Shown here piece after piece: positions 10,710 to 56,010 of a stretch of DNA of 64,000 nucleotides. The translations under genes were made by a program, and so were the position numbers. Source of the DNA: Arthrobacter roseus (lineage in GTDB: Bacteria > Actinomycetota > Actinomycetes > Actinomycetales > Micrococcaceae); contig NZ_JAFBCU010000001.1 in assembly GCF_016907875.1 (NCBI RefSeq), positions 186,001-250,000 of the forward strand, given 5' to 3'. Position 1 is the stretch's first letter. Each line of letters begins with the position of its first letter. Below the pieces are notes generated by a model. That model saw only the letters and a list, made by a program, of their open reading frames with translations. It was not told the origin of the DNA and did not search any database.

Positions 10710-10815
10710 TTTATCTTTTGCTCTATGAAAAGAGTACGGGTGGAGTCCGTGTGACGTCAACCTCATTTGTCGACAAATAGCGTGCACGCAGCAAGGTGCG
10801 CTAGGGTCATCAGCA

Positions 10816-10902
10816 GTGACACGGGGTGCTGCGACCACAGGGCCGCAGCTGAGATAAAACCCGTTGAACCTGATCCAGTTAGCACTGGCGAAGGGAATGT
10901 CA
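10816..10902 (+). ncRNA. TPP riboswitch (THI element)
   Basis: The conserved aptamer parts appear in order: ACGGGGTGC at 10821-10829, GCTGAGA at 10848-10854, ACCCG at 10859-10863, TTGAACCTGATC at 10864-10875, a small GTTAGCACTGGC hairpin region and GAAGGGAA at about 10890-10897. GTGAC and ATGTC at the ends close helix P1. In actinobacteria such aptamers usually block translation when thiamine pyrophosphate is bound. The next start codon is about 97 bases downstream, that of the SDR gene, so the three-gene operon that follows should be switched on by thiamine shortage. Confidence 0.95.
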
Positions 10903-10998
10903 GCACTCCCATGACGCGGTCAGTTATCTCGACGCACTCCGGCAGCCGCCGTCGTCATGCGCAGCGCACGCCTTCGCCACACAAGCGAAAGGCACGCC

Positions 10999-22386: not shown

Positions 22387-22402
22387 GAGTGGCTATCCGT
22401 GG

Positions 22403-22437
22403 AGCGCCGGATGCGATGAGAGTCGCACGTCCGGTGC
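22403..22437 (+). ncRNA. Group II intron domain V
   Basis: GCGCCGG (22404-22410) pairs with CCGGTGC (22431-22437), and TGCGA with TCGCA closes a small GAGAG-type loop, with a two- to three-base bulge on the 3' side. This is the catalytic hairpin layout of group II introns. Domain VI follows before the 3' splice site at 22500. Confidence 0.85.
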
Positions 22438-22500
22438 GGAGGGCGGGTCGGAGAAACGAACCGGGAGCAACCCCGGTAACGCGCTCCGGCCCGACCCTAC

Positions 22501-52448: not shown

Positions 52449-53090
52449 ATGCGATCCGGACTGTTACCCCCAGCGGCAGCGGCGGTGTTGGTATTGACCA
52501 GCTGCACCGCGGCCGATGATTACACGACGGGCCCTCCCTCCAGCCCCGATACACAGCCACCAACAATGGCGTCGTCCGCTTCTGCAGACGGAGGTGCGTC
52601 GTCGTCGGGTGCTGCTATGCCATCTGCATCATCAGCGGCGCCGCGTTCACCGTCGGGTTCGGCCTCGCCGTCAGCATCGGCCACGACAGCGCCGTTGACC
52701 CTCTATTACGTGGCCACGGGTGACGACGGTGCCAGCGGAGCAAAAATTGGATGCGGTGACAGCTTGGTCGCCACCTATACGGAGCCTGTGACATTCACAA
52801 ATCAGCTCCGGACAAGTATGGAACGACTTCTCGCCGATGATGACCAGTTCTTGGGTCAATCGGGCCTACTGAACGCCCTGTATATGTCCGACCTTGACTT
52901 CGTCGCGGGGACGGTGGATGGCGAGGTCGCTACGGTAGAACTCACCGGGCAGGTCGCTCTTGGTGGCACCTGCGATGGTCCTCGAGTTTCGGAGCAATTA
53001 CATCAGACGGCAGAAACTGCCACTGGGGCTGGAAGCTCAGCTGTCCTCGTTGACGGAGTTTCGTTGGAGGAGCTCATCAGCCAGAAATGA
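52449..53090 (+). CDS. Lipoprotein with GerMN-like domain
   Basis: A 213-residue exported lipoprotein. The signal peptide ends LVLTSC with the lipobox Cys at 19. A linker of about 60 residues, rich in Ser, Ala and Pro, follows. The C-terminal 130 residues (LTLYYVATGDDGASGAKIGCGDSLV, then LLNALYMSDLDFVAGTVDGEVATVELTG) resemble the GerMN or LpqB-type beta domain. It is probably anchored in the outer leaflet of the cytoplasmic membrane. No functional partner nearby. Confidence 0.8.
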   Translation: MRSGLLPPAAAAVLVLTSCTAADDYTTGPPSSPDTQPPTMASSASADGGASSSGAAMPSASSAAPRSPSGSASPSASATTAPLTLYYVATGDDGASGAKIGCGDSLVATYTEPVTFTNQLRTSMERLLADDDQFLGQSGLLNALYMSDLDFVAGTVDGEVATVELTGQVALGGTCDGPRVSEQLHQTAETATGAGSSAVLVDGVSLEELISQK

Positions 53091-53120: not shown

Positions 53121-53312
53121 TTAGTGCCAGAGCTGGTCTGCCCAAGCGGCGTCACGAAGGTAGTCCCGCGCGGGACCAAGGTTCCACAACTCTCCGCACG
53201 AGTCGAGGAAGCCCATTCCGCGCATATCCTCAACGAGATCGGTGGAGCATCCCAGCGCTTCACTGAGATCCTGTGTGCTATCGGCCCTGATGACCTCGTC
53301 CTTGGTAGCCAT
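53121..53312 (-). CDS. Small acidic protein coupled to the LanB-C-like gene
   Basis: A 63-residue protein (MATKDEVIRADSTQDLSEAL at the start, DYLRDAAWADQLWH at the end) with two Cys, four Trp and many acids. GGAGGAA lies 8-9 bases before 53312, which decides this start; an upstream ATG at 53351 would overlap the preceding gene by 4 bases. No family recognised. As the last gene of the repeat-peptide operon it could be a second precursor, an immunity peptide or a partner of the SpaB_C protein. An ordinary helix-rich adaptor is equally possible. Confidence 0.6.
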   Translation of the reverse strand: MATKDEVIRADSTQDLSEALGCSTDLVEDMRGMGFLDSCGELWNLGPARDYLRDAAWADQLWH

Positions 53313-53347
53313 GGGTGCTATTCCTCCATTTACTGCTGCCTCGGCGG

Positions 53348-54310
53348 TCATGAGTGTCGCTTCGATCGGGGTAGTGGTTCAAAGTCTGGGCCCCACGTGC
53401 GGGCGTAGAGTCCTAGAGCAGCTTCTTCGCGGGACGAGAAGCCGAGTCGATTGAGAAGCATATGGGCCTGATAGACGGTCAGGTGCTGGGCACTGCGGCT
53501 GACGCGCGCCTTGTCCGCCTTATAAAGGTAGGTATCGAGTGCACGGAACCAGCGACGTCGCCAGTTGTGAACGGCAGATTCTGCCGCAGTTGCCGCCATG
53601 AGCGAATGCATAGGCGAAAGTTTCGCGTCAATCTGAGCTGTCATGGCTTCGCGGACACTGGTGGCCCGGGGCCCAAAATTGGCAGTACATGTTTTGAGAT
53701 GGCTGTCCCAGTAGTAGTCCCAGGAGAGCCGACGTCGGTCTTGCCAGTTCGAGGAGCGCGGACCCTTCATCATGCTTCGAGCCGAGTCGAACAACAGCAG
53801 CGAGGCAAGTGCGGACCGGCTCTGAGTTTTGCTGTAACGCTGGGTAGCCCAAGCACAGAGCTCGGAGGAAAGTTCGAAGGCTTCCTCGGCGAGCTGCAAC
53901 CCTTCGACGCCGCCGTAGGTGACGAGCTCTGCTTCCAACTGCGGATCGGCGTTGCTGAAGGATGAGAATGATCGGTCACTGGCAGGTGATGACAGGTGCT
54001 GTTTGGTGGTCAGTTGAGGCAAGACACCGGCAGCTTGGGCCAGCAATGACCGCTGGATCAGTTGCAGCCGGTCGATGGTTGGCTGTGGAGCGAGGATACG
54101 CATGCGCACCTGCCCTGAGGATGGGTCGTCGCAGCGGGTATAAAACCAGCGCTTCGCGCCCAGGACTCTGGCCTGCGCCGCCAGCGGGGTAACCAGGTCT
54201 GCGATGATGCCGTCCGCTACATCGAAGCCTCCGGTCATAACGGAGAAATGCCACCATTGGTCGCTAGCAACTGTCCGCGAGGCGGGTCGAACCGCTATCA
54301 GCTGACTCAT
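53348..54310 (-). CDS. Stand-alone LanB C-terminal (thiopeptide-type) protein
   Basis: A 320-residue protein matching the lantibiotic dehydratase C-terminal / thiopeptide-type biosynthesis domain (SpaB_C, PF14028). Features are QWWHFSVMTGGF, WFYTRCDDPSSGQVRMRI near the N-terminus, YGGVEGLQLAEEAFELSSEL in the middle and VYQAHMLLNRLGFSSREEAALGLYARTW at the end. In full LanB enzymes this domain eliminates glutamate to make dehydroamino acids; stand-alone members act as elimination or [4+2] enzymes in thiopeptide pathways. No glutamylation (Lant_dehydr_N) gene is present here. It follows the repeat peptide by 102 bases and has a GGAAGGAG ribosome site. Confidence 0.85.
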   Translation of the reverse strand: MSQLIAVRPASRTVASDQWWHFSVMTGGFDVADGIIADLVTPLAAQARVLGAKRWFYTRCDDPSSGQVRMRILAPQPTIDRLQLIQRSLLAQAAGVLPQLTTKQHLSSPASDRSFSSFSNADPQLEAELVTYGGVEGLQLAEEAFELSSELCAWATQRYSKTQSRSALASLLLFDSARSMMKGPRSSNWQDRRRLSWDYYWDSHLKTCTANFGPRATSVREAMTAQIDAKLSPMHSLMAATAAESAVHNWRRRWFRALDTYLYKADKARVSRSAQHLTVYQAHMLLNRLGFSSREEAALGLYARTWGPDFEPLPRSKRHS

Positions 54311-54411
54311 GGAATGTCTCCTTCCGGATCAAATGGTTAGCCCCGCTGGGGCGAGTTTATTGGTGGTTGCCAAGGTGTTGGAATGATGGCAACCGGGAGA
54401 GCATGTTCTCC

Positions 54412-54693
54412 TTAGAGAATGCCCTGCTGGGGCCAATCCCAAACACCAGCTACTGCCTGCTGGGGCCAATCCCAAACACCAGCTACTGCCTGCTGGGGCC
54501 AATCCCAAACACCAGCTACTGCCTGCTGGGGCCAATCCCAAACACCAGCTACTGCCTGCTGGGGCCAATCCCAAACACCAGCTATCGACTGCTGGGGCCA
54601 ATCCCAAACGCCGCCTGCCACTGTGCTGGTTGCGGGTGCAACTGCGCCAGCGACGATCAAGAACCCGGCACTTAGGCCGATGATCTTCTTCAT
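54412..54693 (-). CDS. Repeat-core RiPP-like precursor, six WDWPQQ units
   Basis: A 93-residue peptide. Residues 1-23 look like a secretion signal or hydrophobic leader (KK then IIGLSAGFLIVAGAVAPATS), followed by TVAGG. From residue 29 to 90 there are six copies of VWDWPQQ with a constant 11-residue period, joined by AVAG (once SIAG), and the chain ends GIL. Each linker AG/GG before V could be a protease site that releases VWDWPQQAVAG-type peptides. No unit contains Cys or Thr, and only one a Ser, so lanthionine or thiazole chemistry is not available in the cores. GAAGGGAA lies 5-6 bases before the ATG. It is probably secreted and possibly modified by the downstream SpaB_C protein; function unknown. 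Confidence 0.8.
   Translation of the reverse strand: MKKIIGLSAGFLIVAGAVAPATSTVAGGVWDWPQQSIAGVWDWPQQAVAGVWDWPQQAVAGVWDWPQQAVAGVWDWPQQAVAGVWDWPQQGIL
54424..54609. repeat. 33-bp tandem repeat within the precursor gene
   Basis: Units start at 54424, 54457, 54490, 54523, 54556 and 54589 (the last partial). The first four 33-bp copies are identical and the fifth differs only in its last four bases, even at silent sites. This means recent expansion or active gene conversion. Confidence 0.95.
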
Positions 54694-55047
54694 GAGATTC
54701 CCTTCGAGTGACAACGTACTTTCCTGCCTCGGTCGCTGAGCTCCCGATGACTCAAGAATGACTTGTCCAATTAAGGGTGTCCAGCTGAGCAGATGCCCTA
54801 TTCTGGACATGGCCACAAGCGGACTTTGGCAGGATCCTGCAACCCTGAATTTGGCATGCTGCAAGCCTCAGGCCCGCAGAGATCCGTGGAAAATGGGCTA
54901 AAAAGATGTCGACGCCTTGTAAGGTGTCATTAACCGGCCATGGCAATTTCTGGCGTTCAGAAAATGCCCGCACAGCGCGACACAGTGCGTTCTCACCTCC
55001 CACCGAGGCAGGACCGACGCAGCAAGCACATCGTAGAGAGGACCTCA

Positions 55048-56010
55048 GTGCTCGAAGGAACCGCGGTTGAGCTCTATAAATTCGCCGTCGCCAACCCGTC
55101 GTGGACCAAGCAGGATGCCTCTGACGCCTTGGGCTACACGCTCAAACACATAGAAGTTTCCATTGCCGGACTTGAACGGCAGAGGCTCCTTGCGCCCGGA
55201 ACGAGTGGGCAATGGGTGGCGATTGCTCCGGAAACTGCCTTGGCGGACATTGTCGATGAAGATGAGCGAACCATGCTGCAATTGAGGTCCAGGGTCAGCG
55301 AACGGCGACGAGAATTCGCCAGTATCGTTCCGGTATTTCTCGAAGCTCGGGCACATGCTGCAGGCAGCGGATCTGTGGAAGTTCTGGAGGACCCCGCCAA
55401 AGTACGTCGGCTCCTGATAGATTCCGGCAGGGACGTCATGACCAGCGTCCTTATTGCCCAGCCAGGCCAAGGTTCCACTGCGGACGTTCAAGAAGAGAGC
55501 GTTCGAAAAGACCTCGAGCTGTTGCAGCGTGGAATCCAGCGAAGAAATCTGTATCCAACGGGCACCCGTGATCACGTGCCTACGCGAAAAGCCGTTGCGA
55601 CGGTTACGGACGCTGGCGGCGAATTCAGGGCTCTTCCCTTTGTGCCCCTGAGGCTCATGATCTTTGACAAAAATCTCGCCATAGTGGCACGTCAGCTGGA
55701 CCCTGGAGACAAAGCGGCTCTGGTGATCCGTGATCCCAACCTTGTTCATATATTCACGCTGCTCTTTGATCTCGCATGGGAAATTGCATCACCGTTCCTT
55801 GACGAGGTTGGCCGAAAGTCTCCATTGACCAGTACGCAGCAATCCATTCTGAACGGGCTGGCTGTGGGGTACTCGGACGAAGTGATCGCCCGTCGGCTAG
55901 ACATCAGCGTGCGTACCTGTCGCAGGCACATCGCCTGGATGCTTGAAGAGTTGAGGGCAGACAGTCGTTTCCAAGCAGGCATCAAAGCCAGAGATGCCGG
56001 CTGGATTTAA
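55048..56010 (+). CDS. LuxR-type regulator (TrmB-like N-terminus) of the repeat-peptide locus
   Basis: A 320-residue regulator. The N-terminal winged-helix part (LEGTAVELYKFAVANPSWTKQDASDALG with SIAGLERQRLL) resembles TrmB domains. The middle has a PLD/TrmB-type sensor (DVMTSVLIAQPGQGS), and the C-terminus has a LuxR HTH (LTSTQQSILNGLAVGYSDEVIARRLDISVRTCRRHIAWMLEEL). Such hybrid regulators often accompany lanthipeptide or thiopeptide genes in actinobacteria. The GTG at 55048, behind AGAGAGGA, gives the usual family start; an ATG at 54940 is an alternative. It reads divergently from the precursor gene. Confidence 0.85.
   Translation: MLEGTAVELYKFAVANPSWTKQDASDALGYTLKHIEVSIAGLERQRLLAPGTSGQWVAIAPETALADIVDEDERTMLQLRSRVSERRREFASIVPVFLEARAHAAGSGSVEVLEDPAKVRRLLIDSGRDVMTSVLIAQPGQGSTADVQEESVRKDLELLQRGIQRRNLYPTGTRDHVPTRKAVATVTDAGGEFRALPFVPLRLMIFDKNLAIVARQLDPGDKAALVIRDPNLVHIFTLLFDLAWEIASPFLDEVGRKSPLTSTQQSILNGLAVGYSDEVIARRLDISVRTCRRHIAWMLEELRADSRFQAGIKARDAGWI

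Follow-up and report, generated by a model that had tools for sequence, protein, structure and literature searches.

We analysed a 64,000-nucleotide stretch of the Arthrobacter roseus genome (the window; contig NZ_JAFBCU010000001.1, positions 186,001 to 250,000) in which a gene for a repeat peptide precedes genes for a stand-alone SpaB_C protein and a coupled 63-amino-acid protein, with a LuxR-type regulator gene running divergently (Table 1). The precursor opens with MKKIIGLSAGFLIVAGAVAPATSTVAGG and continues with six VWDWPQQ units at a period of exactly 11 residues, none of which contains Cys or Thr. Tandem Repeats Finder places the array at 54423-54609 (period 33, 5.7 copies, 98% matches, score 353), the only other rows in the window scoring 50 and 51. 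The 93-amino-acid open reading frame (ORF) satisfies a simple signal-peptide rule (not SignalP) that 33 of 1171 control ORFs also pass, and it ends 101 bp before the SpaB_C gene. ORF reading and repeat finding thus confirm the peptide with hydrophobic leader and six regularly spaced units described in the original prediction, an earlier note made from the letters of this DNA.

The module is real and recurrent in Micrococcaceae, a family of soil bacteria, and the conserved part of its peptide is W-[DE]-W rather than VWDWPQQ. A genome-collection scan yielded 22 loci, of which 21 bear the title Arthrobacter and the last belongs to an uncultured Micrococcaceae bacterium, and SpaB_C matches occurred in 11 of 59 relatives and 66 of 295 genomes of the family; the DNA around nearly all matches was taken and its short upstream ORFs read, leaving out the weak partial matches in G189, G201 and G221. 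The core is present in 1, 2, 3, 4 or 6 copies. Repeat formats comprise six and four VWDWPQQ units (the window and L001, of the same genus), one, two or three SWDWPK units and three NWEWPK units; single copies behind a signal end in AWDW, IWDW, IWDWKN or IWGWPQKT; and leaderless ORFs have 16-22 residues ending in SWEWF, 8-11 ending in VWDWI or VWDWL, or only 7-8 (MKSWDWF, MMKSWDWF). The motif is preceded by S, A, N, V or I and followed by PK, F, I, L, PQ, KN, PE or a stop, with YDW in L035 and WAW in L135 as outliers. Of the predicted unit, therefore, the Trp-acid-Trp part stood while V, P and QQ proved unconserved, and the observation that the cores lack Cys and Thr was borne out, no conserved Ser, Thr or Cys being found in the cores of the family peptides compared. 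In L073, L074 and L075 the motif is lost from one of two core copies.

A detection rule requiring a start codon, a purine-rich ribosome site and W[DE]W within 330 bases upstream of SpaB_C was satisfied by 58 of 61 unique LuxR-adjacent upstream regions from Micrococcaceae (the other three carry WGW, YDW and WAW), by none of the 52 unique regions preceding other SpaB_C genes and by 2 of 1220 dinucleotide shuffles. Because the 52-region control set was grouped after the motif survey had been seen, the split by LuxR adjacency serves as the independent comparison: where LuxR is not adjacent, the rule was satisfied by 4 of 56 unique regions (L013, L014, L021 and L071), and in two of these four, searched as genomes G101 and G167, a LuxR gene lies about 9 kb away. 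A second test chose ORFs by the signal-peptide rule and ignored Trp; such an ORF was present in 38 of 71 LuxR-adjacent loci, and of the 37 unique ones 36 contained W[DE]W and the remaining one WGW, against the control rate given above. Fourteen of the 50 unique peptides found by the first rule are 7-22 residues long without a signal.

The core is also constrained at the codon level. Among 95 pairs of signal-picked precursors at least 60% identical, 489 comparisons of W-x-W codons gave 7 changes of amino acid and 27 synonymous ones; the corresponding figures were 460 and 483 in 2375 within the first 25 codons, and 421 and 336 in 1504 for the remainder. The pairs are non-independent, Trp has a single codon, and W-x-W is present in every ORF chosen, though 37 of 37 had it already before this filter was applied. 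An earlier count on SWDWPK cores (85 synonymous, 0 amino-acid differences) was circular, its precursors having been picked by the same core, and was withdrawn in favour of the signal-picked set. Conservation and the controls (58/61 versus 0/52 versus 2/1220, and the codon differences) led us to reject a chance repeat.

Table 1. Features of the W[DE]W module, numbered from the first letter of the window.
Feature	Position	Strand	Basis or remark
63-aa protein ending RDAAWADQLWH	53121..53312	-	76 aa from ATG 53351, overlapping the SpaB_C stop
Lone SpaB_C (Lant_dehydr_C) protein, 320 aa	53348..54310	-	PF14028, TIGR03891, structure model
Short stem then CTAACC, element recurrent before SpaB_C	54334..54355	-	Count over upstream regions
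Intercistronic hairpin GGTTGCCA / TGGCAACC	54365..54394	-	By eye; similar stem in L001
W[DE]W peptide precursor, 93 aa	54412..54693	-	Six VWDWPQQ units behind a Sec-like signal
Candidate promoter TGGACA, 17 bp, CATTCT	54755..54783	-	By eye; similar TGGACA in many loci, uncounted
Operator-like box 2	54793..54815	-	23.8 bits; upstream of candidate peptide promoter
Operator-like box 1	54924..54946	-	25.7 bits; 131 bp from box 2
LuxR-type (GerE helix-turn-helix) regulator, 320 aa from GTG 55048	55048..56010	+	Start inferred from homologue ends

The divergent gene matches GerE at E 4.4e-8, and since the alignments of nearly all homologues begin no earlier than about residue 33-45 of its 356-residue ORF, GTG 55048 is the likelier start. 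LuxR homologues at E 1e-35 or better occurred once each in 61 of 295 genomes, all 61 within the 66 SpaB_C genomes; the other five comprise G006 (LanB-type), G274 (E 2e-8) and three with weak partial matches. The co-occurrence search called for by the original prediction thus found precursor, SpaB_C and regulator kept together in several genera (58/61; 61/295), and none of the observations it had named as telling against it, namely genes not kept together, rejection by the profile hidden Markov model or repeats missing in relatives, appeared in the data searched. Upstream of the peptide lie paired operator-like boxes (consensus nnGnCATGTCCnGATnATGnCAn), seen in 21 loci at spacings of 119 (1 locus), 129-131 (6) or 140-142 bp (14), in steps of about one helical turn. 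Four loci without an adjacent LuxR keep the pair at 129-130 bp, which makes control in trans plausible there. The exact box pattern gave four rows at three places in the genome of the window (G000), one of them box 2, with none in a reversed control; an exact palindromic site of this kind lies outside the window at G000:C1:1549082-1549102.

The SpaB_C assignment made in the original prediction was upheld by profile searches and by fold. The protein matches PF14028 at E 9.8e-20 (72.2 bits, cut-off 24.4) and TIGR03891 at 49.9 bits (cut-off 48.45); a Pfam scan at E 1 matched nothing besides PF14028, including no tetratricopeptide (TPR) repeats. A phmmer search of the PDB found no SpaB_C relatives, and a profile search gave MibB at E 4e-4. 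The structure model (predicted local distance difference test, pLDDT, 90.9) matches chains of MibB, TbtD, NisB, TsrL and PbtD at Z 18.3 to 20.9 (MibB 20.9, with a root-mean-square deviation of 3.5 over 254 residues; TbtD 19.8; NisB 19.5; PbtD 19.0), and the rows after these relatives stand at Z 11.5 and lower.

In NisB, the R786A, R826A and H961A variants permit glutamylation without elimination (PMC4979651, in excerpt), and H961A abolishes dehydration where R784A has a mild effect (PMC4341554, in excerpt). By alignment to MibB, R786 would correspond to R71, R826 to position 131 and H961 to H283. Many SpaB_C residues are invariant. In the 71 rows of the LuxR-adjacent group R71 is kept in 36 and lost in 35, and at position 131 there are 52 rows with K, 14 with R, 4 with T and 1 with A, the window protein having T. 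H283 stands in 69 of these 71 rows; among lone paralogues the figure is 11 of 48. Such paralogues are additional lone SpaB_C genes carried by many Arthrobacter genomes, the number of matches reaching seven in G244 and G278, where fragments are included. At the paralogue loci among L018-L019 and L076-L134 we found no adjacent LuxR homologue, W[DE]W ORF or small protein, and no family recurs in more than 6 of the 36 paralogue neighbourhoods compared.

The absence of a LanB N domain from the window, reported in the original prediction, extends to the whole genome: the glutamylating domain (PF04738) was unmatched at E 1e-3 in 31 of 33 genomes, G000 included. The two genomes that have it, G006 and G023, lack a W[DE]W ORF and carry LanB-N directly before SpaB_C, in ORFs of 826 and 827 residues. 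At the G023 locus (L036, 5065-11967) the LanB-N ORF and SpaB_C are accompanied by an M50 peptidase, a LuxR of the module type and three small Ser/Thr-rich ORFs, two containing Cys; this is probably a class I lanthipeptide-like cluster. From these relatives we infer that the module derives from a split LanB locus whose glutamylating half was lost.

The 63-residue protein is encoded downstream of SpaB_C in nearly all loci of the group; it was not found in L035 or L073, and the L135 contig ends before its position. An ATG at 53351 sits within the SpaB_C stop, and conservation in the family begins near the second ATG, giving 63 residues. Across 56 aligned sequences only R53, D54, A55, W57, A58 and W62 are invariant, and in genus g8 the N-terminal half has disappeared or can no longer be recognised. 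The original prediction had offered this ORF as a possible substrate of SpaB_C: its coupling was confirmed, but it looks like a conserved protein, invariant only at a C-terminal RDAxWAxxxW, rather than a core peptide. Assignment to a known fold was rejected, as the model is of low confidence (pLDDT 66) and the top PDB rows, mostly DNA-binding winged helices, all have E of at least 0.2.

Between the peptide ORF and SpaB_C, 80-148 nt apart in the loci measured, the group has a GTAACC-like element in 60 of its 63 unique upstream regions, against 0 of 50 other regions, a count that allowed six variants of a motif chosen after the data were seen. Consensus structures for this interval show short hairpins in subgroups with covariation terms near zero, and Rfam searches of the leaders brought no family above its threshold; the microRNA and lncRNA models that did appear, the only ones, fell far short of it. 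Hairpins and element together make mRNA control possible.

Of 23 loci compared, 15, among them the window, have both an alanine dehydrogenase and an aminotransferase gene within 8 kb. The divergent L135 as query against 396 genomes of the order matched nine at E 1e-10, all of the same family, in an insensitive search that scored at most six candidates per genome; a weak match outside the family came from G058 (E 4e-12). The best PHROGs match had E 0.18, and a plasmid-borne cluster was rejected on the recurring alanine dehydrogenase and aminotransferase neighbours and on a tblastn search that found no match in 72,556 plasmid records. Elsewhere in the window are a 213-residue Ser-rich, lipoprotein-like protein adjoining the module (52449-53090; no significant family match), a group II intron match (22402-22500; Rfam RF00029, 58.4 bits) and a thiamine pyrophosphate riboswitch (10812-10914; RF00059, 70.5 bits). 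In the incomplete literature covered we found no published description of a W[DE]W peptide or of a lone SpaB_C alongside one, and the available portions of PMC9659744 (on Arthrobacter luxR genes), PMC12849477 (on Micrococcus competence) and PMC4748050 do not mention the module. In our judgement, which falls short of proof, the system is new to description.

We lean, with somewhat less than even confidence, towards a module whose product is a short peptide, in many cases secreted and probably a signal, for which SpaB_C serves as binding partner. LuxR would activate the operon; long precursors would be exported by Sec and cut to short peptides (approximately SWDWPK, AWDW or VWDWPQQ), their spacers resembling V-x-A; the peptide would pass between cells, to be re-imported or to act on neighbours; SpaB_C, formerly the eliminase of a split class I lanthipeptide enzyme, would now serve mainly as a cytoplasmic peptide-binding partner; and the 63-residue protein may tune it. 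We favour this because of the co-occurrence of the W[DE]W ORF, its codon constraint and repeat copies, the co-inheritance of LuxR, the phased boxes, the absence of LanB-N and the retention of the R786-equivalent in only 36 of 71 rows. Its most specific form, an Actinomycetota pheromone system that uses an exapted lanthipeptide eliminase as intracellular receptor for a Trp-acid-Trp peptide encoded in anything from seven leaderless codons to six secreted tandem copies, is rather unlikely. Several points weigh against the signalling interpretation. The 7-22-residue forms lack a signal that would account for their export, and retention of the H961-equivalent hints that catalysis may persist. Many pheromones vary in their core, which W[DE]W hardly does, and a receptor role is not known for any SpaB_C protein. 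The operator matrix started from a seed picked by eye, its training set being the very loci that it describes, and before lone SpaB_C paralogues 0 of 51 regions reached 16 bits (controls 0 of 153; rank test P 0.11). Finally, the SpaB_C frame is broken, by decay or sequencing error, in L015, L021 and L022/L114 beside an intact W[DE]W ORF.

Given the retained histidine and the gene order, an enzymatic role stands close behind: SpaB_C, perhaps with the 63-residue protein as partner or carrier, may modify the W[DE]W peptide or the RDAxWAxxxW tail by new chemistry without glutamylation, making the product a ribosomally synthesized and post-translationally modified peptide (RiPP), a possibility we hold at distinctly below even. 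The fold is intact, the gene order of precursor then enzyme fits, the H961-equivalent is far commoner in the group than in lone paralogues, and five-residue RiPP precursors, the biarylitides, appear in the literature excerpts consulted; known SpaB_C chemistry, on the other hand, takes glutamylated Ser/Thr or dehydroalanines as substrates. Here the cores have no conserved Ser, Thr or Cys and LanB-N is absent from G000, the R786-equivalent is lost in 35 of 71 rows and the R826-equivalent is Thr in the window, and the 7-residue forms are too short for a leader. Stand-alone elimination-domain proteins do occur in class I clusters, where another reaction has been deemed possible (PMC7268733, in excerpt). 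The RiPP-like system of the original prediction kept its parts and their linkage, with the repeats now one of several formats reaching down to a 7-residue ORF; the label RiPP is unproven for the W[DE]W peptide. Less probable still is that the ORF acts only in cis, as an attenuator or ribosome-arrest peptide of the SecM or TnaC kind that sets SpaB_C expression: the ORF ends shortly before SpaB_C (101 nt in the window), its core mostly lies near the stop codon, some forms are very short, and hairpins and the GTAACC-like element intervene, but two to six cores would be superfluous where the first would already stall, long forms carry signal peptides, covariation terms are near zero and no Rfam family passes its threshold. 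That the locus is a decayed lanthipeptide remnant, its SpaB_C and LuxR functionless and its peptide incidental, seems very improbable; LanB-N beside SpaB_C in G023 and G006, the LuxR and Ser/Thr-rich ORFs of G023 and the broken frames in L015, L021 and L022 would suit it, against which stand the core constraint, co-occurrence in 61 genomes and the many invariant SpaB_C residues.

Should the peptide act as a signal, Actinomycetota would have an unmodified, gene-encoded oligopeptide pheromone whose receptor has an unexpected fold. The typical signals of this phylum are enzyme-made small molecules (PMC10075063, in excerpt), and as cyclic or modified peptides are already named among them, beside butyrolactones (PMC4748050, in excerpt), peptide signals as such are not unheard of. 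If SpaB_C instead modifies the peptide, its chemistry would proceed without glutamylation on substrates down to seven residues. In either case the combination of a W[DE]W mini-ORF, a lone SpaB_C and a LuxR is a marker easily overlooked by automatic annotation.

Set beside known systems, the module departs in defining features from those of the class I lanthipeptide, thiopeptide and RRNPP types, though it is RRNPP-like in outline. Judged by gene content, the locus is not of ordinary lanthipeptide or thiopeptide type, because LanB-N is missing genome-wide. Class I lanthipeptide dehydratases (NisB, MibB; PF14028) share the elimination-domain fold, and the LanB-bearing relative L036 has a LuxR and Ser/Thr-rich small ORFs; here, in contrast, there is no LanB-N in the genome and no Ser/Thr/Cys core, and the catalytic arginines are not kept together. 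The thiopeptide [4+2] pyridine synthases TbtD and PbtD are likewise stand-alone SpaB_C proteins of similar size and fold, but the present module has no LanB-N to make dehydroalanines and no conserved Ser in its core. Biarylitides, in the excerpts seen, resemble the shortest W[DE]W forms in having a peptide gene of few codons; they also bring two aromatic residues close together, as in W[DE]W, whereas the partner here is SpaB_C. Rap-Phr systems have extra paralogues without a peptide, a parallel to the lone SpaB_C paralogues. The RRNPP signature combines a small Sec-type propeptide, a repeated short peptide and an adjacent receptor, and intragenic duplications are frequent in pheromone propeptides (PMC10075063, in excerpt). 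Applied as a propeptide of 10-100 residues with a Sec signal, a TPR receptor of 250-500 residues and a gene gap of -60 to 400 bp, this signature fits the window ORF (93 residues, signal rule), excludes the 7-22-residue forms, agrees with the gap of 101 bp (80-148 nt elsewhere) and suits the partner in size (320 residues), which has SpaB_C (PF14028) in place of TPR repeats. Rap-Phr and RRNPP hosts are Bacillota, whereas the W[DE]W module belongs to Actinomycetota and includes signal-less 7-residue forms; its overall logic may nevertheless follow that of Rap-Phr and RRNPP, by analogy, through a partner of unrelated fold.

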